Positions 19,457 to 50,540 of a stretch of 62,059 bases of DNA are shown here, in pieces (positions within the stretch are counted from its first letter, which is position 1; each line of letters opens with the position of its first letter). The position numbers and the translations under genes were made by a program. This DNA comes from Actinomycetota bacterium (lineage in GTDB: Bacteria > Actinomycetota > Actinomycetes > S36-B12 > CAIYMF01), in the NCBI GenBank assembly GCA_009697815.1, contig WLRQ01000010.1:1-62059 (forward strand). The letters run 5' to 3'. The notes under the pieces were generated by a model. The model did not search any database, was not told where the DNA came from, and saw only the letters and a list, made by a program, of their open reading frames with translations.

Positions 19457-19492
19457 GTGAATGTGCCCTGAGCGGCCCTAGAGGCCGCCAGG
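19457..19492 (+). repeat. Dispersed foldback repeat, copy A (left half only)
   Basis: Begins GTGAATGTGCCCTG and continues AGCGGCCCTAGAGGCCGCC. It forms a hairpin GCGGCC-CTAGA-GGCCGC, extended by CCCTG/CAGGG flanks. It lies between the convergent DUF3073 and purM genes and may also serve as their terminator. It matches the left end of complete copies B and C. The inner part beyond 19492 has diverged. Confidence 0.85.
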
Positions 19493-19547
19493 GTTCCCTC
19501 GATCTTGAGAGTTGGGACCCTCCGCGCCGACGCGTAGGTCCTGCGGA

Positions 19548-20672
19548 TCAGCGCGAGTGAGTGCCCGAGAGTGTGACGGCCCCGCCGCCGCCGCCCTTGG
19601 CTGGGGCGTCGCCGTCCTCGCCCTCGGCCCGGCTCCGGGCCTCGCCGATCACCCATGCGTCGACGCCGCGGGCGGCCAGACGCCGGAGGGCGGCTGCCAC
19701 TGAACCAGGTGCCACCAGTGCGATCATGCCGACACCCATGTTGAAGGTCTTCTCCAACTCGGGCAGGACCACATTGCCGACCTCACCCACCAGGCTGAAA
19801 ACCGGGTGCGGGGTCCAGGTAGCACGGTCGATCCGAACGTGGACATCGCGCGGAAGGACTCGCGCGAGATTCGCAGCGAGCCCACCCCCCGTGACGTGGC
19901 TGAAGGCATGGACATCGACGTCATCCGCGCGTGCAAGGTCAAGGCAGTCGAGCGAGTAGATCCGAGTTGGCTCAAGAAGTTCCTCGCCGAGCGTGCGCCC
20001 GAGGACATCGATGTGACCCTCAAGGGTGAGTCCGCCCGTGGTCAGCAGCACGTGGCGCGCCAGCGAGTAACCATTGGAGTGCAAGCCGCTGGCACGCATG
20101 GCAATCGCGACGTCACCGACGCGCACTCGATCCGGGCCCAGTAGGTCGTCGGCGTCGACGATTCCGGTGCCAGCTCCGGCGACGTCATACTCATCCGGGG
20201 AGAGCAAGCCCGGATGCTCGGCGGTCTCGCCCCCGACCAGGGCGCAACCTGCTCGGCGGCAGCCCTCAGCGATGCCGGAAACGATCGAGGCAATGCGCTC
20301 GGGTACGACCCTGCCCGTCGCGATGTAGTCGGTCATGAACAAAGGTTCGGCACCGCACACCACGAGATCGTCGACGACCATGGCGACAAGGTCGATTCCG
20401 ATGGTGTCGTGCTTGTCCATCCGCTGCGCGATAACAACCTTGGTGCCGACGCCATCGGTCGAGGTCGCAAGCAAAGGGCGCTTGAAGCGGGTCACCATCG
20501 AGATATCGAAAAGGCCGGCGAAACCGCCAAAGTCGCCCACGACCTCAGGGCGTTGGGCACGCGCGATCGATGCCTTCATCAGGGCAACCGCACGTTCCCC
20601 GGCCTCGACGTCGACCCCGGCAGATGCGTACGTCGCGGAACTAGTTACGCGCTCAGGCGTCGCTGGGGTCAC
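19548..20672 (-). CDS. purM: Phosphoribosylformylglycinamidine cyclo-ligase
   Basis: 374 residues. Closes the imidazole ring of FGAM to AIR using ATP, step 5 of purine synthesis. Conserved runs: YASAGVDVEAGERAVALMK, LLATSTDGVGTKVVIAQRMD, VVCGAEPLFMTDYIATGRV, ALVGGETAEHPG and HSNGYSLARHVLL. The GTG start overlaps the purF stop (GTGA), so purF-purM are translationally coupled. The C-terminal tail is extended with a Gly-rich GDAPAKGGGGGAVTLS stretch not needed for catalysis. Confidence 0.96.
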   Translation of the reverse strand: MTPATPERVTSSATYASAGVDVEAGERAVALMKASIARAQRPEVVGDFGGFAGLFDISMVTRFKRPLLATSTDGVGTKVVIAQRMDKHDTIGIDLVAMVVDDLVVCGAEPLFMTDYIATGRVVPERIASIVSGIAEGCRRAGCALVGGETAEHPGLLSPDEYDVAGAGTGIVDADDLLGPDRVRVGDVAIAMRASGLHSNGYSLARHVLLTTGGLTLEGHIDVLGRTLGEELLEPTRIYSLDCLDLARADDVDVHAFSHVTGGGLAANLARVLPRDVHVRIDRATWTPHPVFSLVGEVGNVVLPELEKTFNMGVGMIALVAPGSVAAALRRLAARGVDAWVIGEARSRAEGEDGDAPAKGGGGGAVTLSGTHSR

Positions 20673-22240
20673 GGGCGCGTCAACGCGTCGGGGGCGCCGC
20701 CGCCGCCGAGAAGTCGGGCGGGGCCGTCGAGAACTGCGTCGTCACCGGATTCGCGAAGTCGTGCTTCGAGGCCCTCAAGACCCTCGAGCAAGTGCTTACC
20801 GAGCAGTTCGGGCTCGGGAAGCTCGACCGGGTAGACCCCGTCAAAACACGCCCGACACAGGCGATCCATCGCGACGCCCGTGGAGTCGACGAGGCCGTCG
20901 AGGGACACATAACCAAGGGAGTCGGCGCCGATCGACGAGCGAATCTCGTCGACGAGTAGGCCATTGGCGATCAGCTCGGCGCGCGTCGCGAAATCGATGC
21001 CGTAGAAGCACGGCCACTTCACGGGCGGGCTCGAGATGCGAACGTGCACTTCACGAGCACCTGCCTCGCGCAGCATTCGCACAATCGCCCTCTGGGTGTT
21101 GCCTCGGACGATGGAGTCGTCGACGATCACGAGCTTCTTGCCGGCAACGATCTCGCGGAGCGGGTTGAGCTTGAGCCTGATGCCGAGTTGGCGAATCGTC
21201 TGCGAGGGCTGGATGAAGGTGCGCCCCACGTAGGCGTTCTTCACCAAACCGTGTGCGAACGGGATTCCAGACTCCTGCGCATATCCGACCGCAGCCGGGG
21301 TGCCGCTCTCGGGCACGGGGATGACGAGGTCGGCCTCAACGGGATGCTCACGGGCGAGTTGACGGCCAACCTCCACGCGCACGGCGTGAATGGAGTGACC
21401 TGAAATCGAGGTGTCTGGCCGAGCGAGGTAGACGAACTCGAACAGGCACCCCTTGGGGTCGGCGACAGCAAAGTGCTGCGTCCGTAGGCCGTGCTCGTCG
21501 ATGGCCACGAGCTCACCGGGCTCAACCTCCCGGACGAACGAGGCGCCGACGATGTCGAGGGCAGCCGTCTCGCTGGCAACGACCCATCCGCGTTCAAGAC
21601 GCCCCACCACCAACGGACGTATCCCCTGCGGATCGCGGGCCGCATACAGCGTGGTGTCATCCATGAACACCAACGAGAACGCGCCGCGCAGGAGAGGAAG
21701 CTCGGCCATCGCCGCGGCCTCAAGTGACACGTCGGGATGGGATGCCAGCAATGAGGTCAACAGGTCAGTGTCGCTGGTGCTCGTGGCGTTGCCGAGCGGG
21801 AGCTCGCCGCTTGCCTCGGCACGCTCGCGAACCCGTCGGGCAAGTTCATGCGTGTTGGTGAGATTTCCGTTGTGGCCCAACGCAAGATGTCCGGTTGCGG
21901 TCGCGCGAAAGGTCGGCTGAGCGTTCTCCCAGATGCTCGCGCCGGTGGTCGAGTAGCGCGCGTGCCCGATCGCGATATGCCCATGAAGGCTCTCAAGCGA
22001 GGCCTCATTGAAGACCTGCGAGACGAGTCCCATTTCCTTGTAGACCAAGGTGCGGAAGCCATCACTGACGGCTATCCCAGCCGATTCCTGGCCGCGGTGC
22101 TGAAGGGCGTAGAGACCGAAGTAGGTGAGCTTGGCGACCTCCTCGCCAGGGGCCCAGACGCCGAAGACGCCACAGGCGTCCTGCGGGCCCTTCTCACCGG
22201 GCAGAAGGTCGTGGTTGAGCCGTCCATCGCCGCGAAGCAC
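20669..22240 (-). CDS. purF: Amidophosphoribosyltransferase
   Basis: 523 residues. First committed step of purine synthesis (PRPP plus glutamine to phosphoribosylamine). The N-terminal nucleophile Cys lies in DACGVFGVWAPGEEV after about 22 residues that would be removed as a propeptide, followed by LQHRGQESAGIAV. The PRPP loop is KKLVIVDDSIVRGNTQRAIV. GTG at 22240 is used; no clear ribosome binding site, so the start is approximate. Downstream purM overlaps. Upstream, across 148 bases, is a CsrA-like gene on the same strand. Confidence 0.96.
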   Translation of the reverse strand: MLRGDGRLNHDLLPGEKGPQDACGVFGVWAPGEEVAKLTYFGLYALQHRGQESAGIAVSDGFRTLVYKEMGLVSQVFNEASLESLHGHIAIGHARYSTTGASIWENAQPTFRATATGHLALGHNGNLTNTHELARRVRERAEASGELPLGNATSTSDTDLLTSLLASHPDVSLEAAAMAELPLLRGAFSLVFMDDTTLYAARDPQGIRPLVVGRLERGWVVASETAALDIVGASFVREVEPGELVAIDEHGLRTQHFAVADPKGCLFEFVYLARPDTSISGHSIHAVRVEVGRQLAREHPVEADLVIPVPESGTPAAVGYAQESGIPFAHGLVKNAYVGRTFIQPSQTIRQLGIRLKLNPLREIVAGKKLVIVDDSIVRGNTQRAIVRMLREAGAREVHVRISSPPVKWPCFYGIDFATRAELIANGLLVDEIRSSIGADSLGYVSLDGLVDSTGVAMDRLCRACFDGVYPVELPEPELLGKHLLEGLEGLEARLRESGDDAVLDGPARLLGGGGAPDALTRP

Positions 22241-22388
22241 ACCGTGAGTCTACGTTGGTCGGCGAGCTATCCTGACCGCCTAGGCGCGCCGCGCGTGCCA
22301 CGTGCGCGGACGCGACGAAGATCTGCGCTCAGGCTGCGGTGGCTCGACCAGATCCCTCTGACTCTCACCGCTAGCCCCTCCCCGCCGC

Positions 22389-22589
22389 CTACTGCCCGGG
22401 CTCTGCCTCCACCACTGCGCGGGGCGGCTCGAGCATCGGTAGAGGATCGAGTTCGCCGCGCCGCACTCCGACTTCGGCCGGGGCATCGATTCCGAGACGA
22501 ACGAGGCCGCCCCGCGCGCCGAGCACTGTGATCGTGATTCCGCCGTCGAAGACGACACTTTGACCCTGACCGCGAGCAAGTACCAACAT
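22389..22589 (-). CDS. csrA: CsrA/RsmA-like RNA-binding translational regulator
   Basis: 66 residues with a strong AGGAGG site six bases before the ATG. MLVLARGQGQSVVF leads into ITITVLGARGG, then LVRLGIDAPAEVGVRRGELD, matching CsrA along its length: Leu4, Arg6, the VTVL-like strand, VR(I/L)G(I/V)(D/N)AP and the Arg of the V-x-R-x-E RNA-binding edge. Arg7 of E. coli CsrA is Gly here. CsrA is uncommon in Actinobacteria and usually accompanies flagellar genes, none of which is in the window. Its own leader has several GGA motifs (CTGGATGGAGG and AGGAGG), the type CsrA binds. Gene reality is well supported; its target is unknown. Confidence 0.8.
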   Translation of the reverse strand: MLVLARGQGQSVVFDGGITITVLGARGGLVRLGIDAPAEVGVRRGELDPLPMLEPPRAVVEAEPGQ

Positions 22590-22817
22590 GGCCTGCCTCC
22601 TGGGTGATCGCTGCCTCCATCCAGTGTGCGAGCCAGGAGGCCGGTTGGACCGGCACGTCACCCAGACGGCGTCGGCAATCCGCGACGCCTTCACCTCGGA
22701 GGCCCGACGGGCCTTCGAGGCTGCGGCGAAGATTCGTTGGATGACGCAGGGCACACGGGGATTTGCCCGGTGAGATGAGACCAGTGGGGCCCTCACAGCC
22801 CCGAAGGGCCAGCGCAC
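22590..22817. other. Gene-free spacer upstream of csrA-like gene
   Basis: 228 bases between the CsrA-like start and the 3' end of the sterol-carrier-family gene. It contains the GGA-rich csrA leader (22590-22635). No clear hairpin or promoter hexamers were recognised. A weak plus-strand reading frame (22588-22773) is discussed among the rejected items. Confidence 0.4.
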
Positions 22818-23189
22818 TCAGGACAGTGGCAAGAGCGCCGACAGGTCACTGCGCTCACCACTAGCGCGGACTCGTCCATCGGCCACGGCATCGCCCCACT
22901 GAACGATCCCCACAGCCAGTTGGAGCCAAGTGCGCGCATCGCACTCGACAGCAGCTGGCGGGGTTCCCCTGCGGTGAGTCGCCCCCTCGAGCACCTGGAC
23001 TGCCGCGTACGGCGGCACGCGGACCTCCACCGAACGACCGGGCGCCGCGGCCACAAGTGCCGCGAGCGTGGCCTTGACCGCCGCCTTGACCTCGAGTCGA
23101 GCGGGGATGGCCCCGGAGTCCCACTCGGCCAACACCGCCATCGCCGCCGTCACCGCCACGCCATCTGGTCTCTCCGCGAGTGCGCCCAC
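22818..23189 (-). CDS. Sterol-carrier-family protein (SCP2-like, purine-cluster type)
   Basis: About 123 residues from the GTG at 23189, which has GGGGAG six bases upstream; an upstream TTG at 23234 is possible. The segments LEVKAAVKATLAALVAAAPG, RSVEVRVPPYAAVQVLEGA, HRRGTPPAAVECDARTWLQL and AVADGRVRASGERSDLSALL are the signature of the small sterol-carrier-family protein found beside purF/purL in many Actinobacteria. The fold is SCP2-like but its ligand is unknown. It lies downstream of purL with a complete foldback repeat (copy B) between them. Confidence 0.82.
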   Translation of the reverse strand: MGALAERPDGVAVTAAMAVLAEWDSGAIPARLEVKAAVKATLAALVAAAPGRSVEVRVPPYAAVQVLEGATHRRGTPPAAVECDARTWLQLAVGIVQWGDAVADGRVRASGERSDLSALLPLS

Positions 23190-23248
23190 TCCCGGCTCCC
23201 CCACATCCCCCACAAAAACGGACCCTACCCACAACCTCCCAAATTCCG

Positions 23249-23369
23249 GTGAATGTGCCCTGGACGGCCCTAGGGGCCGCTAGAACGCCCCACTATGTCC
23301 ACAGGCCACAAGGCTGAGGATTCAGTGGGGAAGATGGGCGGCCTCTAGGGCCGCCCAGGGCACATTGAC
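23249..23369. repeat. Dispersed foldback repeat, copy B (complete, 121 bp)
   Basis: Left end GTGAATGTGCCCTGG and hairpin CGGCCCTAGGGGCCG; right end is the complement of GTCAATGTGCCCTGGG with hairpin GGCGGCCTCTAGGGCCGCC. Between them are CCCCACT and AGTGGGG arms and a TATGTCCACAGG core, partly decayed relative to copy C. It lies 13 bases beyond the purL stop, on the 5' side of the sterol-carrier gene. Confidence 0.92.
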
Positions 23370-23382
23370 CGCAAACGAGGGG

Positions 23383-25656
23383 TTAGGCGAAGAGGGCGGG
23401 GAGCGTCGCGTCGGCGGTGGTGCGGAGTTCCGTGAGGGTCCAGGTGGCGGACGCGCCATAGACCGATTCGACGATCAGGTCGTCTCCTGCCGCACCCACG
23501 ATCCCGATTCGGGTGACCGGCACACCGTGGTCACCTGCAAGGGACTCGAACGCACCCAGGGTCGAGGTGGGAACCGTGACCACAGCCCGCGCCGTCGATT
23601 CCGAGAGTAGGAAGACGAAGGGATCGACGCCCTCGGGAATCCTCACCAACGCACCGACGCCCGCCCGCAACGCCATCTCGACGAGCGTCTGCACGATCCC
23701 AGCATCCGACACGTCATGCGCCGCAGTGATCAACGAACCCACCGACGCAGCCACGAGAAGCTCGCCGAGTGACCGTTCGCGACCGAGGTCGACTACGGGA
23801 GGCAACCCGCCAAGGTGGCCGTGGATGACGTGCGCCCACTCCCCGCCGGCGAACTCATCCCGGGACTCGCCCAAGACGAGAACCACGTCGTCGCTTGCAC
23901 GGAACGCCATCGGTGTACGTCGGGCCACATCCTGAATCACCCCGAGTACGCCCACGACCGGAGTCGGATTGATCGGGGTGCTGCCGGTCTGGTTGTAGAA
24001 ACTGACGTTGCCGCCGGTGACGGGAGTGCCGAGCTCGAGGCAGCCGTCAGCGAGACCACGCACCGCTTCGCTGAACTGCCACATGACATCCGGGTCTTCG
24101 GGCGACCCGAAATTGAGACAGTTGGTCACCGCGAGGGGAGCAGCGCCGGCTGTTGCGACATTGCGATAAGCCTCTGCCAGAGCGAGCTTCGCGCCGTTGT
24201 ATGGGTCGAGTTTGGCGAAGCGGCCATTGCAGTCAGTGGCAAGCGCGACACCGAGGCCGGTCTTCTCGTCTACGCGTATGACGCCGGCGTCCTCAGGCTG
24301 CGCGAGCACAGTATTTCCGAGGACGTACCGGTCGTACTGCGAGGTCACCCAGGTCTTCGACGCAAGGTTCGGGGATCCCACAAGTGTGAGGACGGTGTCG
24401 CGAATCTCAGCGGCAGTGGAGGGGCGCGCGAGCCTCTCGGGGCCATCAGCCTGCAACGAGTCCTGCCACGACGGACGCGCGAAAGGCCTTTCGTAGACCG
24501 GCCCATCGTGCGCCACCGTGCGCGGCGGAACGTCCACAATAATCTCGCCGTGCCACTCGATGACGAGCCGGCCCGTCGCCGTAACCTCGCCGATGACGTC
24601 GGCGGTGACATCCCACTTGCGGCAGATGGCCAGAAACGCGTCGACCTTCTCTGGGGTCACGATTGCGCACATGCGTTCCTGAGACTCACTCATGAGGATT
24701 TCCTCGGGAGTGAGTGACGCGTCGCGCAGCGGCACCTGGTCGAGGCGCACATGCATGCCGCCTTCGCCATTGCTCGCGAGTTCACTTGTGGCACAGGAAA
24801 TCCCAGCGCCGCCGAGATCTTGAATCCCCTCGACCAGACCTGCGCGAAGCACTTCGAGCGTGCATTCGATGAGCAGCTTCTCCATGAAAGGATCGCCAAC
24901 CTGCACCGCGGGGCGTTTCGTCGGCCCGCCCTCAGCGAAGGTCTCCGACGCCAACACCGAGACGCCGCCGATACCGTCGCCGCCGGTCTTGGCACCGTAG
25001 AGAATTACCAGGTTGCCGACACCCTTGGCGCTCGCGAGGTGGATATCCTCATGACGCATCGTGCCTACGCACAGAGCATTGACGAGCGGATTCCCTTGGT
25101 AGGAAGCGTCAAAAACGATCTCGCCTCCGATATTTGGCAGCCCGAGGCAATTACCGTAGCCAGAGATTCCCGCGACAATTCCCGGCAAAACGCGACGGGT
25201 GTCGGGGTGATCTGCCGCACCGAAACGGAGAGGATCCATCACCGCTACCGGACGGGCACCCATCGACAGGATGTCGCGGACGATGCCGCCGATTCCGGTG
25301 GCAGCGCCCTGATACGGCTCGATGTAAGACGGGTGGTTGTGCGACTCGACCTTGAAGGTGACCGCCCAGCCCTCGCCGATGTCCACCACGCCAGCGTTCT
25401 CCCCGATCCCGACGAGCAACGCCTCAGTCTCGGGCTTCTTGTCGCCGAACTGGCGCAAGTGAACCTTGCTCGACTTGTATGAACAGTGCTCGCTCCACAT
25501 CACGCTGTACATGGCTAGTTCGGCGCTCGTAGGGCGCCTCCCGAGGATCTCGCGGATGCGAAAGTACTCGTCGGTCTTGAGCCCGAGCTCGGAGTAGGGC
25601 TGCTCGAGCTCAGGGGTGGTCTCTGCGTTCGCGACGGTGTCGGTGTGACGACTCAT
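23383..25656 (-). CDS. purL: Phosphoribosylformylglycinamidine synthase subunit PurL
   Basis: 757 residues, the small-PurL (actinobacterial/Bacillus) type that works with PurQ and PurS to convert FGAR to FGAM. Seen: [67 protein letters not shown] and [11 protein letters not shown]. The ATG overlaps the purQ stop (ATGA), so purS-purQ-purL form a coupled operon in the order of subunit assembly. The 3' end is followed after 13 bases by foldback repeat B. Confidence 0.97.
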
Positions 25657-26336
25657 GCCTCAACGAGGCCCTTCAGGAGCGAGGTGAAGAAGCCCAGACC
25701 ATCGGTCGTGGGCCCAGTGAGCGCTTCGACCGCGTGCTCGGGGTGCGGCATGATGCCGACGACATTGCCGCGCGCGTTGGCGACACCCGCGATGTCGCGG
25801 CGGCTGCCGTTGGGATTGACCCCGATGTAACGGGCGACGACACGTCCCTCGCTCTCGAGCATGTCGAGGGTGGACTCGTCGGCGACATAGCTGCCCTCGC
25901 CGTTCTTCAGAGGTACGACGATCTCCTGGCCCTCGGCGTAGGACGAGGTCCACAGAGTGTGAGCATTCTCGATGCGCAGTCGCTGATCGCGGCAGATGAA
26001 ATGCAGATCTGTGTTGCGGACGAGCGCGCCAGGCAGCAGGTGTGATTCGCACAGAACCTGGAAACCATTGCAGATACCGAGAACCGGGAGGCCGCCATTC
26101 GCGGCGGCGACGAGCGGACCCATCACGGGGGCGAACCGGGCGATCGCGCCGCATCGCAGGTAGTCGCCGTAGGAGAAGCCCCCCGGGAGTACCACCGCAT
26201 CGACACCGTGCAGATCGGCGTCGCCGTGCCAGAGCTCGATCGCCTCGCCGCCGGCGATCCGAATCGCGCGCGCGGCATCGCGATCGTCAAGGGATCCCGG
26301 GAACGTGACGACGCCGATTCGCATCGTCACACTCAC
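25653..26336 (-). CDS. purQ: Phosphoribosylformylglycinamidine synthase glutaminase subunit PurQ
   Basis: 227 residues. Class I glutamine amidotransferase that supplies ammonia to Pur[21 protein letters not shown] forms the oxyanion region; the nucleophilic Cys is in [13 protein letters not shown] and the catalytic His/Glu in [14 protein letters not shown] at 26336 overlaps the purS stop; an ATG at 26324 gives the more usual [10 protein letters not shown] start and cannot be excluded. Confidence 0.97.
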
Positions 26337-26581
26337 CTGACGTCCTCGCGGATCACATAGTCCTCGATCACGGGGTTGGACAGCAACGACCCCGCGAGTT
26401 CGTGGATCTGGGCCAAACGGCTCTCATCGATGTCGCCCTCGAGCTCGAGCGAGAAGCTCTTACCCTGACGAACCGAGGTGACGCCCGCGAGGCCCAGGCG
26501 AGCGAGCGCGCCTTCAACGGCCTTGCCCTGGGGGTCCAGGATTTCGTTCTTCAGCATGACGTCGACGATGACGCGGGCCAC
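26333..26581 (-). CDS. purS: Phosphoribosylformylglycinamidine synthase subunit PurS
   Basis: 82 residues, usual length. [20 protein letters not shown], then [12 protein letters not shown] and [11 protein letters not shown], are typical. PurS bridges PurL and PurQ. GTG start with GGAG six bases upstream; first gene of the purS-Q-L operon. A possible -10 (TAAGAT on the minus strand) lies about 40 bases upstream. Confidence 0.96.
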
Positions 26582-26706
26582 AGCGCGCTCCAGGGGGAGT
26601 GGTCAAGTGGTACGCCTCATCTTAACGGCCACCTCGACCGGGCCGGACCACGCTGCGCCGAACCGCGCTCCGCGCGACCAGATTGCGCCGACCGCACGTG
26701 GCCCAC

Positions 26707-27711
26707 TTAGCCAAGCCTCGCCGAACCCTCGACGCTGGCGTCGGTCCAGGCCTTCCATGCTGAAGCCACCATCTCGAGGAGGTCCTCGCTCGCCTTCCAG
26801 CCAAGTTCCGCACGGGCTAGGTCGGCCGAGGTCACGATGCGGGCTGGGTCGCCCGCACGTCGCGGGCCGACGTCGTATGGCACGGCGCGACCCACGACAG
26901 CCTCGACGGCCGCGATGATCTCGCGAACCGAGACGCCCTCACCCCGGCCGAGGTTGTAAGCCGGCGCCAGAGAACGGTCAGCGGCCAGAGCGCGCGCCGC
27001 AAGGACATGTGCGGCGGCGACGTCGGCGACGTGGATGTAGTCACGAACACATGAGCCATCAGGTGTCGCGTAATCGTCCCCGAACAACTCGGGCCGCCGT
27101 TCCTCGGACACCGCGTCGAGCAGGATCGGGAACAGGTTGTGCGGACTGACGTCGTAGACGCCCGGGGCCCCCGAACCCACCACGTTGAAGTAGCGCAAGG
27201 ACGTGTGCCGAAACGGAGGCCGACCCTGCAGGGCTTCCGCACGCGCGAGGTCGCGCAACAGCCACTCGCCAATCACCTTGGACTCCCCGTAGGGCGATTC
27301 CGGGTTGAGCGCAGACTCTTCTGTGACCAGGTCGACATCCGGCGTGCCGAAAACTGAGGCGGACGAAGAGAAGACGAAGTTTCGTACATCTGCGGCCACG
27401 CATTGCGCGAGCAACACTCGCGTGCCTTCAACGTTGACCCGGTAGAACTCCAGGGGGTCTTGTACCGAAACCCCGGCGTACTTCAATCCAGCGACGTGAA
27501 CGACACCCGTGATCCCAGGCGTGTGAAGGACTTGCGCGAGTGAATCAGCGTCGGTGATGGACGCCTCGATGATCGGGACTCCGCTCGGAACGAATTCGCG
27601 GCGTCCGCTGGAGAAATCGTCGTAGACCATGACCTTGATGTCGTTGTCAATGAACGCACGTACGACGTGCGATCCGACATATCCCGCTCCACCGGTCACC
27701 AACCACGTCAT
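26707..27711 (-). CDS. galE: UDP-glucose 4-epimerase
   Basis: 334 residues, extended SDR. NAD-binding TWLVTGGAGYVGSHVVRAF, catalytic Ser in FVFSSSASVFG, Tyr/Lys in SPYGESK, RYFNVVGSGAP and CVRDYIHVADVAAAHVLA. It interconverts UDP-glucose and UDP-galactose for cell-surface glycans. It interrupts the purine genes and lies 53 bases from purC on the same strand, so co-transcription with purC is possible. Confidence 0.93.
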   Translation of the reverse strand: MTWLVTGGAGYVGSHVVRAFIDNDIKVMVYDDFSSGRREFVPSGVPIIEASITDADSLAQVLHTPGITGVVHVAGLKYAGVSVQDPLEFYRVNVEGTRVLLAQCVAADVRNFVFSSSASVFGTPDVDLVTEESALNPESPYGESKVIGEWLLRDLARAEALQGRPPFRHTSLRYFNVVGSGAPGVYDVSPHNLFPILLDAVSEERRPELFGDDYATPDGSCVRDYIHVADVAAAHVLAARALAADRSLAPAYNLGRGEGVSVREIIAAVEAVVGRAVPYDVGPRRAGDPARIVTSADLARAELGWKASEDLLEMVASAWKAWTDASVEGSARLG

Positions 27712-27764
27712 GGACCTACCCTAGGCGCGGAAGCGCCCCAGGAGGGCGAGTGCTGAGAACTCGC

Positions 27765-28731: not shown

Positions 28732-28852
28732 GTGAATGTGCCCTGGGCGGCCTTAGGGGCCGCCCAGGCTCCCCACTGTGTCCACAGGCCACGGCCCTGT
28801 GGACACAGTGGGGAAGTTGAAAGGCCTCTAAGGCCGCCCAGGGCACATTGAC
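28732..28852. repeat. Dispersed foldback repeat, copy C (complete, 121 bp, best preserved)
   Basis: Two 57-base arms, identical at 49 positions, flank a 7-base loop (CCACGGC). Each end reads GTSAATGTGCCCTGGGCGG inward. The left-end hairpin CCTGGGCGGCC-TTAGG-GGCCGCCCAGG is perfect over 11 bp. The centre is a perfect 18-bp stem, CCCCACTGTGTCCACAGG at 28771-28788 with its complement at 28796-28813. Each central arm contains GTGTCCACA, one base from the actinobacterial DnaA box TTGTCCACA. It lies between purB and purC. Confidence 0.95.
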
Positions 28853-28869
28853 AGGAAGCGGGGCGGGGG

Positions 28870-30303
28870 TCAGAGGATGGGCTCGGGCGCGTAGATGGCG
28901 GCGTCGGGGCGTTCGGCGACGAGGAGTTCGATCTCCTCGACCACCGCGGCCACCTGGGCGCGGGCGGCGCCGGTGAACTCGACCGGCTCGGCGACGAGGG
29001 CGTCAAGCTGCTCAGAGGTGAGACGAAGTCGACCGTCAGCCGCGAGGCGCTCGAAAAGGTCGTTGCCCTCAGCTCCACTCTCGCGCATCGCCAGTGCGAC
29101 GGCCACCGCATGCTCCTTAATCACCTCGTGCGCGGCCTCGCGTCCGACTCCGTTTCGCACCGCGGCCATCAACACCTTGGTGGTGGCGAGGAACGGAAGG
29201 TAGCGACGCAGTTCGCGCTCGGCCACCGCGGGGAAGGCTCCGAACTCGTCGAGAACCGTGAGGAAGGTCTCGAGCAGCCCGTCGATCGCGAAGAAGGCGT
29301 CAGGCAAAGCGACTCGGCGCACCACCGAGCAGAAGACGTCGCCCTCGTTCCACTGGGCTCCCGCGAGCTCGGCCGTCATTGACGCATAGCCCCGGAGAAT
29401 CACCGCAAATCCGTTGATTCGCTCACATGAGCGACTGTTCATCTTGTGCGGCATCGCACTCGAGCCGACTTGGCCGTCCTTGAACCCCTCGGTGACGAGC
29501 TCATTGCCCGCCATGAGCCTCACCGTCATCGCGAACGACGACGGGCCAGCCGCGAGCTGCACGAGTGCCGCGACGACGTCGAAGTCCAGCGATCGCGGAT
29601 ACACCTGGCCAACGCTGGTGAACACGAGATTGAAACCAAGGTGCGCGGCGACACGTTCTTCGAGCTCGTCGAGCTTGCCGATATCGCCGTCGAGCAGATC
29701 GAGCATGTCCTGCGCGGTGCCAACGGGGCCCTTGATCCCCCGAAGCGGGTAGCGCTCGATGAGCTCATTGAGACGCCGGTGGGCGACGAGCAACTCGTCG
29801 GCCGCCGACGCGAAACGCTTGCCGAGAGTGGTCATCTGCGCTGCGACGTTGTGCGATCGGCCCGCGATCGCGAACTCGTCGTATGCAACGGCGTGTGCCG
29901 CCAGACGCGCGAGCACGGCGACCGTCTTGTCGCGCGTGACCTGAAGTGCGCTGAGGATCTGGAGCTGTTCGACGTTCTCGGTGAGGTCGCGGCTCGTCAT
30001 CCCCTTGTGCACGTGCTCGTGGCCAGCGAGCGCCGAGAACTCCTCGATCCGTGCTTTGACGTCGTGCCGGGTGACCTTCTCGCGTTCACGAATCGACTCA
30101 AGATCCACGTCCCCGAGCACCGCTTCGTACGCTTCGACCACCCCAGCGGGCACCTCGATGCCGAGATCGCGTTGGGCCTTGAGCACCGCAATCCAGAGCT
30201 GCCGCTCTAGAACGATCTTGTGTGCGGGAGACCAGATCGTCGCCATGGCACCCGACGCGTAACGGGAGGCGAGAACATTGGGGATCGCGGGCGAGCTTGG
30301 CAT
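28870..30303 (-). CDS. purB: Adenylosuccinate lyase
   Basis: 477 residues, fumarase/aspartase superfamily. Cleaves SAICAR to AICAR and adenylosuccinate to AMP. Signature GSSAMPHKMNSRSCERINGF; TSRDLTENVEQLQ, RSHNVAAQMTTLGKR and GIKGPVGTAQDML are the other conserved blocks, with the catalytic Ser in the GSS loop and a His in GRSHN. ATG start at 30303. 169 bases without a gene separate it from purD. Confidence 0.96.
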   Translation of the reverse strand: MPSSPAIPNVLASRYASGAMATIWSPAHKIVLERQLWIAVLKAQRDLGIEVPAGVVEAYEAVLGDVDLESIREREKVTRHDVKARIEEFSALAGHEHVHKGMTSRDLTENVEQLQILSALQVTRDKTVAVLARLAAHAVAYDEFAIAGRSHNVAAQMTTLGKRFASAADELLVAHRRLNELIERYPLRGIKGPVGTAQDMLDLLDGDIGKLDELEERVAAHLGFNLVFTSVGQVYPRSLDFDVVAALVQLAAGPSSFAMTVRLMAGNELVTEGFKDGQVGSSAMPHKMNSRSCERINGFAVILRGYASMTAELAGAQWNEGDVFCSVVRRVALPDAFFAIDGLLETFLTVLDEFGAFPAVAERELRRYLPFLATTKVLMAAVRNGVGREAAHEVIKEHAVAVALAMRESGAEGNDLFERLAADGRLRLTSEQLDALVAEPVEFTGAARAQVAAVVEEIELLVAERPDAAIYAPEPIL

Positions 30304-42084: not shown

Positions 42085-42212
42085 CATCGCCGCGAACCCT
42101 CTCCTGGAGCGGGCCCCGTCGGGGCGTAGCCGAAACCTCACGAGTCCTTCTCTTCTAAGCCACGACGGTGAAGGGTCGACTCAACCCGCAGTCGGCTCGT
42201 AGTGTCGCTGCC

Positions 42213-43385
42213 GTGACGCGACGAATCCCGCCCCTTGTCGAACGAATGCGCGAACACGAGTCGACCGTGTTCGGCGAGATGAGCGCACTCGCGATCAGAA
42301 CCGGATCGGTCAACCTCGGACAGGGCTTCCCAGACACCGACGGTCCCGATGTCGTGCGGGACGCTGCGATTCGCGCAATCCAGGAGGGGCGGGGCAACCA
42401 GTACCCACCCGCACACGGTGTCCCCGAGCTGCGCCGCGCCATCGCCGATCACCAGCAGCGCTTCTACGCAATCACCATCGACCCCGGCACAGACGTGGTG
42501 GTGACTACCGGCGCCTCCGAGGCCATCGCCGCAGCGCTGCTAGCCCTCGTGGAGCAGGGCGACGAAGTGCTGATGTTCGCGCCCTGGTTCGACCTCTATG
42601 CCGCCGCGATCTCTCTCGCGGGCGCCTCACGGGTTTCCGTGCCGTTGACTCCCGGGACGTTCCGACCAGACGTCGCCGCGTTACGCGCCGCTGTCACCCC
42701 TCGCACCCGACTGCTCCTGCTCAACTCCCCGCACAACCCCACGGGCAGTGTGTACACGCGCGAGGAACTCACCGCGATTGCCGACCTCGTCATCGAGAAG
42801 GACCTGTGGGTGATCAGCGACGAGGCGTACGAGCACCTCGTCTTCACCGGGTCGGTGCACATCCCGTTCTGCACCATTCCTGGGATGGCCGAGCGCACAG
42901 TGACGATCGGTAGCGCGGGCAAATCACTGTCACTGACAGGATGGAAAGTCGGCTGGGCCACCGGACCCGCCGATCTGATCGCCGCTGTGCGCGTTCCCCG
43001 ACAGCACCTGTCGTTCGTCTCGGGCGGGCCGTTCCAGTGGGCGGTGGCCGAGGGGCTTGCCCTGCCCGACTCCTACTGGGCCGGGTTCCGCGACCAACTT
43101 CAGCTCCAGCGCGACATGCTGTGCGATGGCCTCACCGCACTCGGCTTCCCCGTCACCGTGGCGCAAGGCACGTACTTCGCCACCACCGACGTGCGACCGC
43201 TCGGATACGACGATGGGTGGGCGTTCTGCCGCGAACTCCCGACGCGTGCCGGCGTCGTCGCGATTCCCCACGAGGTCTTCCACGACGATCCGGATGCTGG
43301 AAAGCCTTTTGTGCGATGGGCATTCTGCAAACGTCCTGAGGTGCTTGAGGAGGCCCTCATGCGCCTGCGACGCGCATTCGGCTGA
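42213..43385 (+). CDS. Class I/II PLP-dependent aminotransferase (DapC / kynurenine-aminotransferase-like)
   Basis: About 390 residues from the GTG at 42213. Type I aminotransferase motifs: VNLGQGFPDTDGP, GNQYPPAHGVPELRRAIADH, LLLNSPHNPTGSVYTREEL, VISDEAYEHLVF and the PLP Lys in TIGSAGKSLSLTGWKVGW; C-terminal Arg in KPFVRWAFCK. Actinobacterial homologues are annotated as N-succinyldiaminopimelate aminotransferase (lysine synthesis) or as broad-range aminotransferase. No other lysine gene is present here, so I leave the symbol blank. It is convergent with clpB. Confidence 0.88.
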   Translation: MTRRIPPLVERMREHESTVFGEMSALAIRTGSVNLGQGFPDTDGPDVVRDAAIRAIQEGRGNQYPPAHGVPELRRAIADHQQRFYAITIDPGTDVVVTTGASEAIAAALLALVEQGDEVLMFAPWFDLYAAAISLAGASRVSVPLTPGTFRPDVAALRAAVTPRTRLLLLNSPHNPTGSVYTREELTAIADLVIEKDLWVISDEAYEHLVFTGSVHIPFCTIPGMAERTVTIGSAGKSLSLTGWKVGWATGPADLIAAVRVPRQHLSFVSGGPFQWAVAEGLALPDSYWAGFRDQLQLQRDMLCDGLTALGFPVTVAQGTYFATTDVRPLGYDDGWAFCRELPTRAGVVAIPHEVFHDDPDAGKPFVRWAFCKRPEVLEEALMRLRRAFG

Positions 43386-43409
43386 GCGCGGCGAACCTGC
43401 CCGGCTTCG

Positions 43410-46001
43410 TCACTGACGCCTCTGCACGGTGATGCCGTGGGAGTCGGGCGCACGATCGACCACGACCGTGTCGCCATCACTCACGTCACCGGCGAGGATC
43501 GCTTTCGCAAGTCGATCTCCGATCGAGGTCTGCACAAGCCGGCGCAATGGCCGAGCGCCGTAGATCGGGTCGAACCCGCCGAGTGCCAGCCATTCGCGGG
43601 CGGCGGGGGTGACCATAAGGCCGAGTCGCCGATCGCTGAGCCGCGCCGAAAGTCGATCGATCTGCAGTCCGACGATCACGCCAAGTTCCTCGACGCCGAG
43701 CGGGTGGAACAACACTGTGTCGTCGAGCCGGTTCAAGAATTCCGGCTTGAACGTTGAGCGCACAACCCCCATCACGGCGTTCTCCTTCTGTTCGGTCGAC
43801 AGAGTCATGTCGGCGAGATAAGAAGACCCAAGATTGGACGTGAGCACCAGGATCGCGTTGCGGAAGTCGACCGTGCGGCCCTGGCCATCGGTGAGCCGAC
43901 CATCATCGAGCACCTGAAGAAGTACATCGAAGACCTCCGGGTGGGCCTTCTCGACCTCGTCGAACAGCACCACGGTGTAGGGGCGCCGGCGAACCGCCTC
44001 GGTGAGCTGTCCGCCCTCCTCATAGCCGACGTATCCGGGTGGGGCGCCGACAAGTCTTGCGACAGAGTGCTTCTCACCGTATTCGCTCATGTCGATACGC
44101 GTCATCGAGCGTTCGTCGTCGAAGAGGAACTCGGCGAGGGCCTTCGCCAACTCGGTCTTGCCGACGCCAGTGGGGCCGAGGAAGAGGAAGGACCCCGTGG
44201 GGCGATCCGGATCTGCCACACCTGCGCGCGAACGTCGCACGGCATCGGACACGGCACGGACCGCATCGATCTGGCCCACGACACGCTTGCCGAGCTCATC
44301 TTCCATGCGCAGGAGCTTCGCGGTCTCACCCTCGAGAAGGCGTCCGGCGGGGATTCCTGTCCATGCTGCCACGACCTCTGCGACGTCGTCCGGGCCGACC
44401 TCTTCGCGCACCATGCGCGCCCGATCGGTTGTCGTGGACGCGGCAGCGGTGAGCTGGATCTCGAGGGCAGGAATCTCTGCGTACAGCAGGCGTGACGCCT
44501 GCTCGAAGTCACCGTCGCGCTGCGCCCGATCGGCCAGCATGCGCAACTCATCGATACGAATCTTGAGATCGCCGACGTGATCGAGGCCTTGCTTCTCCGC
44601 GTCCCAACGGGCGCGCATTCCGGCCAGTTCCTCGGACTTGTCGGCAAGGTCGGCCTGCAACTTAGCAAGGCGCTCGATTGACGCCGGATCGGTCTCGCGG
44701 GCGAGGGCAAGCTCCTCCATGCGGAACCTGTCGACCTGCCGTTGAAGGGCATCGATCTCGACGGGCGACGAGTCGATTTCCATCCGGAGCCTGGACGCGG
44801 CCTCGTCGACGAGGTCGATGGCCTTGTCTGGGAGGAACCTGCTCGTGATGTACCGATCGGAGAGAGTCGCAGCGGCGACAAGTGCGGAGTCGGCGATCGC
44901 AACCTTGTGGTGCGCCTCGTACTTCTCCTTGATGCCACGCAGGATCCCGATCGTGTCCTCGACGCTGGGCTCACCAACGAAGACTTGCTGAAAGCGCCGC
45001 TCGAGTGCTGGGTCCTTCTCGATGCGCTGGCGGTATTCATCGAGGGTGGTTGCGCCGACCATGCGCAACTCGCCGCGGGCGAGCATCGGCTTGAGCATGT
45101 TGCCGGCATCCATCGCGGAATCTCCGCTGGCTCCGGCGCCCACCACTGTGTGTAGCTCGTCGATGAAGGTGACGACCTGTCCGTCGCTGCCCTTGATCTC
45201 ATCGAGCACTGACTTCAAGCGCTCTTCGAACTGGCCTCGGTACTGTGCGCCCGCGAGCATGGCCGCGAGATCGAGTGACACCAATCTCTTGCCGCGCAAG
45301 GAGTCCGGGACGTCGCCCGCGACGATGCGCTGCGCAAGCCCCTCGACTACCGCAGTCTTGCCCACACCCGGCTCGCCGATCAGCACCGGGTTGTTCTTCG
45401 TGCGACGACTCAACACCTGCACTACACGCCTGATCTCCGCGTCGCGGCCGATCACCGGGTCGATCTTGCCCTCGCGCGCGAGGGCTGTCAGGTCGACGCC
45501 GTACTTCTCAAGCGCTTGAAAGCTGCCCTCGGGATCGGCCGTCGTTACGGGGCGCTGCCGCACCTCGGCGATGGCGGCCAAAAGCGTGTCTGGGGTAGCG
45601 CCAGCTGCTTTGAGGAGATCAGAAACGCCGGGCCCGCCTTGCTGAGCCAGACCGGCGAGCAGGTGCTCGGTCGACACGAAGGTGTCACCGCTTTGGGTCG
45701 CGACGAGCTCTGCTGCGGTGAGAGCGCGATAGGTGGCCGGAGAGAGCTGCGGCGATTGCACGGTCGCGCCCGTGGCCGACGGCAGTGCGTCAAGGGCCAC
45801 CTGCACCAGCCTCGTGAGGGCCACGCGATCGACACCGACACGGTCGAGGACCGCCGTCGCAATTCCTTCGCCGCTTGCGCCCTGAGCGAGCAAGGTGCTG
45901 AGCAGGTGAAGCGGCTCCACCTGGGCCTGGCCCGATGTCGCGGCGCGGCGTACCGAGCCGGCCACGACTTCTTGGCACTTGGTCGTGAGATTGAGATCCA
46001 T
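43410..46001 (-). CDS. clpB: ATP-dependent disaggregase ClpB
   Basis: 863 residues. N-terminal repeat domain ([20 protein letters not shown]), first AAA+ module with Walker [14 protein letters not shown] (about residue 200), M-domain coiled coil (about 400-510), second AAA+ module with Walker [15 protein letters not shown] (about 600), and [20 protein letters not shown] pore loop. It extracts proteins from aggregates with DnaK/DnaJ/GrpE, encoded just upstream. ATG at 46001. Foldback repeat D lies between hspR and clpB; no HAIR operator was found directly before clpB, so it may depend on the dnaK transcript or another promoter. Confidence 0.96.
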
Positions 46002-46059
46002 GTCGATCACCCCCGTCGTATGACGCAGATCGTGGCCATGTCCATCATGACGATCTCTG

Positions 46060-46116
46060 GCTGTGGATGCAGTGGGGAAGTTGAGCGGCCTCTAGCGCCG
46101 CCCAGGGCACATTCAC
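46060..46116 (-). repeat. Dispersed foldback repeat, copy D (right half)
   Basis: CTGTGGATGCAGTGGGG, then AAGTTGAGCGGCCTCTAGCG and CCGCCCAGGGCACATTCAC. It matches the right half of copy C (AGTGGGGAAGTTGA..., GCCGCCCAGGGCACATT). The left half is absent or degraded. It lies between hspR and clpB on the heat-shock operon strand and would be transcribed. Confidence 0.9.
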
Positions 46117-46133
46117 CCGCAATGGGTGGGGGG

Positions 46134-46580
46134 TCAATGGGAACGGTCGCGGTCGGCGGGGCGGGGGCGCCAGACGACGACGGCGGTGCCGGTCGTGGTG
46201 CCCGTTCTGCCCGGGGTGGAGCCGAGCCCCGCTTGCGAGTCGGCTGGATTGCGGGCACTGAGGCCTGGCCGGAGACGTTGGACCTCGGCTCGGAGGAACC
46301 CGACCTCCGAACGCAGGACGTCGACCTCAGACTCCAGTGCCAGGATTCGGTGGATCCCCGCGAGATTGATTCCTTCGGTCGACATCCGCGCGACCTCGCG
46401 TAGTCGGGCGATGTCGTGCAGTGAGTACAGCCTGTTGCGGCCGCCCGTACGGTCAGGCGAGACAAGGCCGAGACGGTCGTACTGGCGCAAGGTCTGGGGG
46501 TGCAACCCGGCGATCTGGGCTGCCACGGAGATCGCATAGACCGGAGTGAGGTCATCGGGCCGGAATCGATCATGCGTCAT
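46134..46580 (-). CDS. hspR: HspR heat-shock repressor (MerR family)
   Basis: 148 residues. The MerR helix-turn-helix PVYAISVAAQIAGLHPQTLR continues QYDRLGLVSPDRTGGRNRLY, followed by a short coiled coil (VDVLRSEVGFLRAEVQRLRP) and a basic Gly/Thr tail. HspR binds HAIR operators and represses the dnaK operon with DnaK as co-repressor. A HAIR-like site is present upstream of dnaK at 50470-50490. The dnaK-grpE-dnaJ-hspR order matches Streptomyces. Confidence 0.93.
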   Translation of the reverse strand: MTHDRFRPDDLTPVYAISVAAQIAGLHPQTLRQYDRLGLVSPDRTGGRNRLYSLHDIARLREVARMSTEGINLAGIHRILALESEVDVLRSEVGFLRAEVQRLRPGLSARNPADSQAGLGSTPGRTGTTTGTAVVVWRPRPADRDRSH

Positions 46581-46672
46581 CGGACACCCCGGGCACAGGC
46601 GAGAAGAACAACAGCCTCACGCATCATCGGAGCCCTCCGACACCTCAGGCACGCGCGAAAAGACCGACAGCG

Positions 46673-47848
46673 TCATGGGGTTTCCACCGGCGGACGGGCG
46701 CGGGCCAGGAGGTCGGCGCGAGGGTCGTGGTCGGCGGTGGCGTCCGCGTACGCAGCGAGCGCCTCGCGGGCCTGCTTCGACAGTCGCTGCGGGACCGCGA
46801 CGTCGACAGTGACGAGGACATCGCCTTGAGTGCCATCCTTGCGCCGAACTCCCTTGCCGCGCACGCGGAGCACGCGGCCGCTCTGGGTTCCCTCGGCCAG
46901 GCGGACAGTGACCGTGGTGCCACCGGGGACGGGCACCGTGACATCGGCTCCGAGCGCCGCCTCGACGAACGTGACCGGCACCGTGACGGTGAGGTTGTCG
47001 CCGTCACGGCCGAACACCGGGTGCGGCGTGACGGTGACGACGACGAGGAGGTCACCCGGCTCACCGCCCTGCTCACCCGGAACTCCTTTGCGGGGCAATC
47101 GAATTCGCTGTCCGGTGCGCACGCCTGCGGGGATTCTTGCCTGAACAGTTCGCGTCGACGGGGCTCTCCCGCTGCCCTGGCATAGGGGGCATGGGTCATC
47201 GACCACAAGACCACGACCGCGACATCCGCGGCACGGCTCCGGGAGTGCGAACCCGCCCGCATTGCGGTTGACCTGCCCCGCGCCCTGGCAGGTGGGACAG
47301 ACGCGAGGGGTCGTGCCATTGCGTGCCCCGGTACCCCCGCACGAGGTGCAGGGCGCATCGCTGGTGAGACGAAGGGGAAGGGTGACACCAGTGAGCGCCT
47401 CGTCGAAGGAGAGGGTGACGGTGCTCTCGATGTCGGCACCTCGACGAGCGCGACGAGCGCCGGGCTGAGGCCCACCGCGGTTGAACACCCCGCCGAAGAC
47501 GTCGCCGAAACCACCACCGCCACCGCGACCGCCGAGAAGGTCCGACAGGTCGAAGGAGGTTGCGCCCTGTTGCCCCCGTCCGCGCCCTCCGGGAGGTCGG
47601 AAGCCACCGCTACCGAACAGGGATCGGGCCTCGTCGTACTCCGCGCGCTTGGTGTCGTCGGAGAGGACGTCGTAGGCCTCGGACACCTCCTTGAAGCGCG
47701 CCTCGGACTTCGGGTTGTTCTCGTTGGAGTCCGGGTGGTGCTGCTTGGCCAGAGCCCGGAACGCCTTCTTGATCTCGGGCGCCTTGGCGTCCTTGGGGAC
47801 GCCGAGAGTCTTGTAGAAGTCCTTCTCGATCCAGTCCTTCTGGCTCAC
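46673..47848 (-). CDS. dnaJ: Chaperone DnaJ
   Basis: 391 residues. J domain with KDFYKTLGVPKDA and the HPD tripeptide (KQHHPDSNENN), a Gly-rich linker (about 75-130), and four zinc-finger repeats CTSCGGTG, CPTCQGAG, CRGCRGRG and CPLCQGSG, then the client-binding C domains. It stimulates DnaK ATPase. It lies in the dnaK operon between grpE and hspR. A 25-bp tandem repeat lies just upstream (47882-47944). Confidence 0.96.
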   Translation of the reverse strand: MSQKDWIEKDFYKTLGVPKDAKAPEIKKAFRALAKQHHPDSNENNPKSEARFKEVSEAYDVLSDDTKRAEYDEARSLFGSGGFRPPGGRGRGQQGATSFDLSDLLGGRGGGGGFGDVFGGVFNRGGPQPGARRARRGADIESTVTLSFDEALTGVTLPLRLTSDAPCTSCGGTGARNGTTPRVCPTCQGAGQVNRNAGGFALPEPCRGCRGRGLVVDDPCPLCQGSGRAPSTRTVQARIPAGVRTGQRIRLPRKGVPGEQGGEPGDLLVVVTVTPHPVFGRDGDNLTVTVPVTFVEAALGADVTVPVPGGTTVTVRLAEGTQSGRVLRVRGKGVRRKDGTQGDVLVTVDVAVPQRLSKQAREALAAYADATADHDPRADLLARARPPVETP

Positions 47849-47881
47849 GGCGTCCCTCCCTTCTCGGTGCGGCAGCCGGCC

Positions 47882-47944
47882 GTGCGGTCAGGCGTGCGAT
47901 CAGGTCGTGCGGTCAGGCGTGCGATCAGGTCGTGCGGTCAGGTC
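47882..47944. repeat. Tandem repeat, about 2.5 copies of 25 bp, between grpE and dnaJ
   Basis: Alternating units GTGCGGTCAGGC (12) and GTGCGATCAGGTC (13): 47882-47906 and 47907-47931 are identical 25-mers, followed by a third partial unit at 47932-47944. It is a minisatellite inside the heat-shock operon, in the 108-base grpE-dnaJ spacer, ending about 13 bases before the grpE stop on the minus strand. Confidence 0.9.
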
Positions 47945-47956
47945 GTGCGCCGTGTG

Positions 47957-48531
47957 CTACTCGGGACCCTCAACCGCCACGATTGCCGCGCGCAGGACGC
48001 GCCCGGCGTAGCGGTATCCGGGGGAGAACACCGACACGCACGTCGGTTCGGTGACCTGGTCGGATTCGGTGTGGCTGATGGCCTCGTGCAGCGAGGGGTC
48101 GAATGGATCGCCCACAGCGCCGAAGCGCTCGAAGCCGAGCCGACCCACCGTGGACTCGAGTGCCTCGGCCACCGACTTGAACGCGCCCTCGAGATCACCG
48201 TGCTCACGCGCTCGGCCGATGTCGTCGAGCACGGGAAGGAACTCAGCCAACGCACTGCCGAGCGCGAGGTCGCGCATGGACTCGCGATCGCGCTCGACAC
48301 GCTTGCGGTAATTGGCGTACTCGGCGTGGACCCGCTGAAGATCCCCGGTGAGCTCCGCGATCTTGTCCTCGACAAGGTCGAAGTCACCTTCGACGACGAG
48401 GCCTTCGATGATCTCGGCGAACTCGTCGTTCCCTTCGGGTTCGGGAGCAGCGGGCTGCTCCCGAACCTCGAAGGTGTCCGGATCCACACGGCGCTTGTCC
48501 TGGAAGGAGAATCCAGGCTCCTCGGACTCGC

Positions 48532-48535
<4 letters not shown>
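47957..48535 (-). CDS. grpE: Nucleotide exchange factor GrpE
   Basis: 192 residues. Acidic, disordered N terminus (about 1-45), long coiled coil ([34 protein letters not shown]) and the beta-domain [15 protein letters not shown], then [21 protein letters not shown]. Releases ADP from DnaK. The GTG start overlaps the dnaK stop (GTGA), so the two are coupled. Confidence 0.95.
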
Positions 48536-50370
<1,835 letters not shown>

Positions 50371-50447
50371 GGGAAGGGCCTTTCGTGTGAACGGACGAGA
50401 CCTGAAAGAGAGGTTGTGCCTCCAAGAGTGCGGGCAGTCAGATGAAC

Positions 50448-50453
50448 TGTCAA
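50448..50453 (-). promoter_or_regulatory. Putative -35 element of dnaK promoter
   Basis: TTGACA on the minus strand, 78 bases upstream of the dnaK start and just downstream of the HAIR-like operator. The hexamers at the expected -10 distance (CACTCT/ACTCTT) are poor, so the assignment is tentative. Confidence 0.4.
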
Positions 50454-50469
50454 ATCGAGCAGCATGAAA

Positions 50470-50490
50470 TATGAGCCACCTCGACTCATA
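50470..50490. promoter_or_regulatory. HAIR-like HspR operator
   Basis: TATGAGC-N7-ACTCATA at 50470-50490. The known HAIR consensus is CTTGAGT-N7-ACTCAAG; here the GAG...ACTC core, the N7 spacing and the dyad symmetry are kept, with outer CT/AA bases replaced by TA. It is upstream of dnaK and its operon encodes HspR, so autoregulated repression is likely. Confidence 0.75.
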
Positions 50491-50507
50491 TCATCCCCCC
50501 GTTGCGG

Positions 50508-50540
50508 GTGAATGTGCCCTGAGCGGCCCTAGAGGCCGCT
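50508..50540 (+). repeat. Dispersed foldback repeat, copy E (left half)
   Basis: GTGAATGTGCCCTG, then AGCGGCCCTAGAGGCCGC at 50522-50539; the first 32 bases are identical to copy A. The flank TTGCGG before it matches the complement of the flank of copy D, so the repeat boundary extends about 6 bases outward. It lies between divergent dnaK and etfD. Confidence 0.88.

Follow-up and report, generated by a model that had tools for sequence, protein, structure and literature searches.

Intergenic foldback repeats of roughly 100-150 bp are well known in bacteria and include ERIC, NEMIS/Correia, RUP and other repeats that resemble miniature inverted-repeat transposable elements (MITEs). Here we report a dispersed family of such repeats, detected in a 62,059-nucleotide stretch of DNA (contig WLRQ01000010.1; hereafter the window) and known to date from a small number of related uncultured actinobacteria, together with a gene for a putative nuclease that is framed by the ends of the same repeat. 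Among described systems the closest in anatomy are the REPINs and other repetitive extragenic palindromic (REP) sequences associated with RAYT (TnpAREP), which, as presented in extracts of three papers, combine a box with a hairpin, form inverted pairs and decayed halves that lie mostly 3' of genes in many copies, and have one flanked partner gene (PMC8049555, PMC3733652, PMC8266576). Extracts of Di Nocera 2013 describe CGTC-tagged REPs as paired palindromic intergenic repeats reported without a dedicated transposase, and place them in five phyla that do not include Actinobacteria, a word absent from its main text (PMC3733652). These are likewise paired, palindromic and intergenic, but their box differs from that of the present family and the likeness is one of description. 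REP-like palindromes are common in bacteria, and in the parts of the REP literature examined the GTAG type is the only one credited with an enzyme partner, RAYT; the main text of RepRanger 2025 contains no occurrence of endonuclease, transposase or RAYT. Our open-access searches found no description of the present combination, which appears to be a novel type of repeat-plus-enzyme partnership in bacterial genomes; this novelty rests on limited searches of that literature.

The explanation we prefer, to which we assign a probability of roughly 70%, is that the repeats are REPIN-like non-autonomous elements dependent on one partner gene elsewhere in the genome (contig C84, 2954-3982, of the window's genome, G000). 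As in the REPIN-RAYT system, inverted hairpins are paired, with single halves also present (46 of the 47 neighbouring pairs of ends less than 300 bp apart face inward), they lie mostly 3' of genes (94 of 144 ends follow long open reading frames, ORFs), and a single-copy partner gene is flanked by the repeats in six genomes. Unlike that system, the partner matches AbiEi and DUF559/MTES_1575 models and not an HUH/Y1 (IS200/IS605-like) transposase, and the unit begins with RTSAATGTGCCC and has no GTAG tetranucleotide at the foot of its hairpin. The first-pass annotation of the window had called the repeats ERIC- or MITE-like; the dispersed foldback, MITE-like form stands, but the likeness to ERIC extends to size and shape only, the anatomy being that of REPs and REPINs. 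Compared with ERIC, NEMIS/Correia and RUP, the present family has an identified gene framed by its ends, and comparison of sequence, made through Rfam only, gave no match. A classical MITE of an insertion sequence is recognised by target-site duplications and by ends shared with a DDE transposon in the genome. Here the flanks are symmetric C/T tracts that look like part of the element, a clean empty site was not obtained, and the genes scanned inside the long pairs of ends include no transposase. The partner's homologues match models of AbiEi antitoxins, of type IV toxin-antitoxin systems, in their N-terminal part and in part those of DUF559/MTES_1575 (Vsr-like nucleases); between the two ends in each of G000, G006 and G008 there is one ORF of this kind (no search for an AbiEii toxin gene was made).

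Anatomy of the unit and the gene framed by its ends

Each unit consists of a box (GTSAATGTGCCCTG; conserved part RTSAATGTGCCC), a hairpin near GCGGCCYTAGRGGCCGC and a TCCCC stretch that mostly continues as a CACTGNNTCCACAG-like (R) or CGATCATGAA-like (L) inner part, with 7 of 40 listed ends unclassed. On its outer side the box is adjoined by a degenerate C-tract, a T-tract and SCG, which look like element rather than target site because they are mirror-imaged at both ends. Throughout G000 (2.66 Mb, 112 contigs, 93% complete), AATGTGCCCTG occurs 36 times and its reversed control not at all. A looser pattern gives 39 ends, one of which (C49:23482) duplicates another (C39:172) at a contig end, and a script adds C1:73453, leaving 39 distinct ends. 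The duplicate is one repeat copy with identical flank at two contig ends, and the assembly is therefore probably broken or overlapping there. Among 45 paired spans shorter than 200 bp, 16 measure 110-111 bp and 20 measure 120-123 bp, classes separated by about one helical turn, a phasing that would suit a protein complex gripping the two ends.

In G000 a long end pair spanning 1169 bp encloses the partner gene, which has about 341 codons; BP4.bin34 (L195) and JPNG (L147) show the same layout in 1165 bp. Full-length homologues with at least 56% identity are present in six of 11 genomes of the window's genus, one in each, and these are exactly the six that carry the repeat. Two inward-facing ends frame the gene in all six; in five the span is 1165-1197 bp and the stop codon lies 32 bp inside one end, while in G009 the span is 1563 bp, the stop is about 420 bp from an end and the gene copy has an internal stop. 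Since the same ends frame the gene in 6/6 genomes, the repeats of about 120 bp look like internally deleted relatives of a gene-bearing element of about 1.17 kb. A gene with matching ends, suggested earlier as a transposase or RAYT-like gene, thus exists, but it is not RAYT and resembles AbiEi regulators and DUF559/MTES_1575 (PD-(D/E)XK) proteins.

The domain matches, weak but consistent, suggest an AbiEi-like N-terminus joined to a DUF559/MTES_1575-like PD-(D/E)XK C-terminus. Among 39 homologues, AbiEi_4 is matched at E<=0.01 in 20, DUF559 in 10 and MTES_1575 in 9, and the PADLOC AbiEi model matches 39/39 (residues 7-196 in P0003). PD-(D/E)XK enzymes are expected to show conserved acidic catalytic residues (E...D...ExD/K). 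In the 39 homologues S211 (S211xxE214), E214, D247 and H265 are invariant, and E258 and R277 are conserved in at least 90%; the conserved acidic residues are as predicted for this class, an assignment that rests on weak profile matches. A search of PDB sequences gave no match and one of viral contigs no relative, and the Y1 transposase profile PF01797, which matched 5/14 controls, had no match in G000.

Position relative to genes was examined at the 144 ends with enough upstream sequence in the six repeat-bearing genomes. An ORF of at least 150 codons ends within 60 bp on the outer side of 94 of them, as against 364 of 4000 random positions; excluding stops made by the element itself, the counts are 77/144 and 334/4000. 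The most frequent distances from stop to end are 10-17 bp and -4, the latter where the TGA of the box serves as the stop. The statement of the first-pass annotation that none of the copies interrupts a gene needs correction: at 24/144 ends such an ORF meets its first stop in the TGA of the box (17 when the longest ORF is taken instead of the innermost stop), although some of these ORFs may be spurious, the DNA being GC-rich. The start of a long ORF pointing away lies near 74/144 ends, a count without control.

Species-typical stems, shared sites and the link in other branches

The six repeat-bearing genomes of the genus hold 34-49 ends each, the other five have none, and the reversed control gave 0. 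In a species-level genome collection, a pattern tolerant of stem differences, which misses the variant box of G009, found 71 stretches in five metagenome-assembled genomes (MAGs): JPNG_maxbin.064 (G008), BP4.bin34 (G006), GL140_1_metabat_73 (G002; labelled Ca. Nanopelagicales), Umea_bin-04446 (G005) and CRAIB_MAG57. The last (JANWJC; L168, L135, L177) is labelled Acidobacteria yet carries the repeat of the actinobacterial MAGs, and is perhaps mislabelled or contaminated. The exact 27-base pattern had no match in the same collection because stems differ between species and the window's own genome is possibly not included. An earlier idea that the repeat is specific to one species, based on 0/59 other genomes with the G000-type stem pattern, was overturned by the stem-tolerant pattern.

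Box and loop (TAG) are near-invariant, and the stem is typical of each species, with majority stems CGGC/GCCG, CTGC/GCAG or GTGC/GCAC and a mixture of GTGC/GCAA and GTGC/GCAC in GL140. Covariation was measured on 54 distinct ends sampled from seven genomes, with no more than 12 from any one genome. The paired fraction of stem cells is 91.9% compared with 73.3% in shuffled alignments, double changes number 42 vs 14.8, and the covariation score is 0.398 vs 0.107, a value reached by 0/500 shuffles, with slid versions scoring at most 0.168. Minority ends with a second stem type (ATGAAGGTGCCCCAGGAYGCGATAG and similar) were seen in G006 (C48:7207-7316, C265:543-571, C4:23593, C246:10486); their source may be the second homologue of that genome (C185, with two internal stops).

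Comparison of species gave 27 matches of outer flanks; 21 of these and a PPDK site were kept, and six were dropped, four because the match lay at a distance from the element and two manually. Certain ends contribute to more than one pair. The majority stems of the two species differ in 21 of the 22 kept pairs; in these 21/21 the ends at the shared site also differ in stem, and in 12/21 both carry the exact majority stem of their own species. The shared site thus persists while its hairpin follows the species, which implies concerted evolution or repeated replacement. Comparison of syntenic loci with and without the element, which the first-pass annotation had proposed, revealed whole units present, absent or inverted at orthologous sites. 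For example, at a site near a gene with Pirin domains G000 has a 120-bp repeat; G006 and G008 carry the complete gene element there, inverted in one relative to the other within collinear flanks. Similarly, the site 3' of glyS (glyS, PPDK and dusB are named here from their sequences) holds this element in G000 and G005 and another repeat family in G001, with neither family in the 120 bp viewed for G003, G004, G007, G008, G009 and G010. At two loci where G000 has a paired element, Umea_bin-04446 has minimal 47-bp palindromes of box, hairpin and box (L130:297-343, L144:1942-1988). The PPDK 3' site of G009 (L085) holds a third palindrome (GGATGGGTGAGCGACGGCTATAGCC), by eye like the one (L216:1446-1497) that flanks another homologue, L216, of that genome.

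The association of the gene family with repeats extends to other branches, in which the repeats themselves differ. A second subfamily (G001:C62, G009:C79) is flanked by 46-47-nt inverted repeats whose core occurs 18 times in G001, 10 times in G009 and not at all in the other nine genus genomes. In G011, of another genus in the same family, the palindrome flanking the homologue corresponds to 53 half-site matches, with 0 in seven other genomes, one of them (72% complete) from its own genus; in G103 the palindrome flanking its own homologue has 40 matches, with 0 in six others, one of which, from G103's own genus, has a homologue with other flanking repeats. A homologue on a Rhodococcus ruber plasmid (34% identity), the sole match of the plasmid search, has 53-55-nt palindromes on both sides. 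The gene family has matches in 73/246 class genomes (31/103 genera) and 62/198 phylum genomes.

Flanking inverted repeats score above the maximum (17.0) of a control of 1932 cross pairs of unrelated loci at 13/18 genus loci and 21/29 class loci, as against 0/109 ordinary G000 genes and 0/41 windows shifted outward by 700-1110 bp. A larger control, 1500 of 5416 unrelated pairs, had 5 above 17 and a maximum of 18.5, which was adopted as the threshold of a combined inverted/direct test; this was passed by 14/18 genus, 21/29 class and 10/29 phylum loci, all best matches rather than a random draw and uncorrected for kinship. L201 and L203 fail the combined test, though their ends are present by motif. 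The link therefore weakens farther from the genus. Flanking repeats are often not near-perfect palindromes, because a strict test for these on both sides passes only 3/29 loci (control 0/26); direct repeats also pass in 19/47 loci, which is explained by palindromes matching in either direction and perhaps by repetitive flanks. Palindromes flanking distant homologues in G008 (L210:1448-1504 and 2500-2556) and G002 (L208:1442-1494) contain CCGTCGATG, which recalls the CGTC tag of the REPs said to be without an enzyme; this may be chance.

Proposed mechanism and competing explanations

From the anatomy, co-occurrence, gene framing, covariation and site sharing observed, we infer a cycle of binding, nicking and copying by repair. 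The AbiEi-like N-terminal part of the partner protein would bind the box and hairpin, and its PD-(D/E)XK-like C-terminal part would nick or cut there. Repair would transfer end sequences between copies and so homogenise those of one species; occasionally or rarely it would also seed new sites in harmless 3'-intergenic DNA after stop codons, where short elements would be tolerated as hairpins that do little harm or act as terminators. We consider the chances about even that Actinobacteriota hold a large further class in which AbiEi/PD-(D/E)XK proteins mobilise and homogenise genome-specific palindromic repeats by homing-like cut-and-repair, unrelated to RAYT chemistry, and to which some supposedly enzyme-less repeats may belong. 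A gene family often framed by genome-specific repeats offers a candidate explanation of their origin, spread and uniformity, and suggests that some 'AbiEi antitoxin/DUF559' annotations may hide selfish or domesticated repeat-processing enzymes; a single protein and a single oligonucleotide would suffice for a direct test.

Several observations weigh against this explanation. Nuclease activity of the partner is putative, being predicted from its residues and profile matches: in P0001-P0003, the first genus proteins scanned, AbiEi_4 falls just below and MTES_1575 far below the Pfam cut-off, an NCBIfam scan of the same three gave nothing relevant, and an AlphaFold2 model from a 3-row alignment was poor (predicted local distance difference test score 41). 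A role limited to binding would fit too, since the N-terminal half matches AbiEi regulators. Many sites are common to species, so that new insertion is rare or old; comparison of the glyS and PPDK 3' regions, whose divergence is too high, yielded no target-site duplications and no base-level empty site, and at the pirin site G000 lacks not only the gene element but also an adjacent melibiase gene. Two of the five covariation measures, pairs with a double change (3 vs 2.9) and further pair types (7 vs 6.6), do not exceed the shuffles, and two of the five stem pairs never vary and carry no information because the search pattern demanded them. Furthermore, 8/29 class and 19/29 phylum loci are at or below the control maximum, including 7/7 phylum loci of one large-genome genus (f24/g46). 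In the genus set two loci, L205 and L212, are negative; the former, from G010, is close to the second subfamily and lacks flanking repeats, and the core of that subfamily has no match in G010.

Three alternatives, which we regard as weaker than the REPIN-like explanation, account for parts of these data. AbiEi antitoxins repress their own promoter through inverted repeats, and the palindromes could be operator sites of an AbiEi-like regulator, those flanking the gene serving autoregulation and the dispersed ones controlling other genes, with the nuclease-like domain incidental. The AbiEi match and the near-invariance of the box between species agree with such a regulon. We nevertheless think it unlikely, given the many sites after stop codons, with or without stops made by the element (an argument tempered by the uncontrolled count of ORF starts pointing away), the repeats on the 3' side of the gene as well, the covarying stems, and whole units that are present, absent or inverted at orthologous sites.

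The position just after stops, the strong foldback and the shared orthologous sites would equally be expected if the repeats served solely at RNA 3' ends, as terminators or as stabilisers of mRNA, and were immobile and kept by selection. This is quite improbable as a full account, as it leaves unexplained why presence tracks one gene, why ends frame that gene and why another family occupies the glyS 3' site in G001; co-option as terminators is compatible with the REPIN-like explanation. Ordinary MITEs of a DDE insertion sequence, with the nuclease gene a passenger between two ends, would account for inverted ends, internal deletions, solo ends and the long pairs that enclose unrelated genes. 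However, gene and ends coincide in 6/6 genomes, the same gene family is linked to other repeats elsewhere, PF01797 has no match in G000 and the genes scanned in the three further long pairs include no transposase (no genome-wide search for DDE families was made), which makes a passenger gene very unlikely.

Repeat copies in the window

Direct reading of the sequence confirmed all five copies that the first-pass annotation had listed within 31 kb, two complete at exactly 121 bp and three halves, including the arm and loop lengths and the 49 identities claimed for the second complete copy (Table 1). The search that it suggested across the genome and relatives likewise produced further copies, as given above, and its 6-base flank TTSCSG was seen, but continues into the C-tract and T-tract on both sides. 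The guess that no described family has this sequence agrees with a scan of Rfam: the window repeats had no match at its thresholds, and four relative loci gave 5 matches at E<=10, all far below gathering scores, the best being mir-876 (27.5 of 88 bits) on a foldback repeat in L120.

Table 1. Coordinates of repeat copies in the window and of long end pairs in G000 (neighbour-gene names in the window are from Pfam domains)
Location	Coordinates	Strand	Feature	Remarks
Window	19457..19492	+	Solo end	Box GTGAATGTGCCCTG and hairpin, L-type inner part (CGATCTTGA); a nearby second end is not listed
Window	23249..23369	.	Complete paired element, 121 bp	Arms identical 42/57; right end 13 bp past stop of purL-like gene (23383-25656, -)
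Window	23249..23282	+	Left end (box and hairpin), first complete copy	
Window	23336..23369	-	Right end (box and hairpin), first complete copy	
Window	28732..28852	.	Complete paired element, 121 bp, R/R type	Arms (57 nt) identical 49/57, 7-nt loop; right end 17 bp past stop of purB-like gene (28870-30303, -)
Window	28732..28765	+	Left end, second complete copy	
Window	28819..28852	-	Right end, second complete copy	
Window	46060..46116	-	Solo end, R-type inner part (CCCCACTGCATCCACAG)	17 bp past stop of MerR-family gene (46134-46526, -)
Window	50508..50540	+	Solo end, L-type	Between Hsp70 gene (48532-50370, -) and 4Fe-4S/CCG protein gene (50713-52935, +)
G000 C84	2922-4090		Long end pair, 1169 bp	Encloses partner gene 2954-3982
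G000 C22	21407-23695		Long end pair	Encloses unrelated, ordinary genes
G000 C81	1212-4812		Long end pair	Encloses unrelated, ordinary genes
G000 C58	45968-47356		Long end pair	Encloses unrelated, ordinary genes

The six gene calls scanned in the last three long pairs comprise a phosphatase-like protein, an SBF transporter, two lycopene-cyclase-like proteins, a Ser/Thr kinase and one without a match, with no transposase among them. In the window, GTSAATGTGCCCTG has 7 exact matches and 9 with at most two mismatches, compared with 0.84 expected and a maximum of 4 in 100 shuffles. Folded as single-stranded DNA with 6-nt flanks, the two full copies have z-scores of -12.9 and -9.7.

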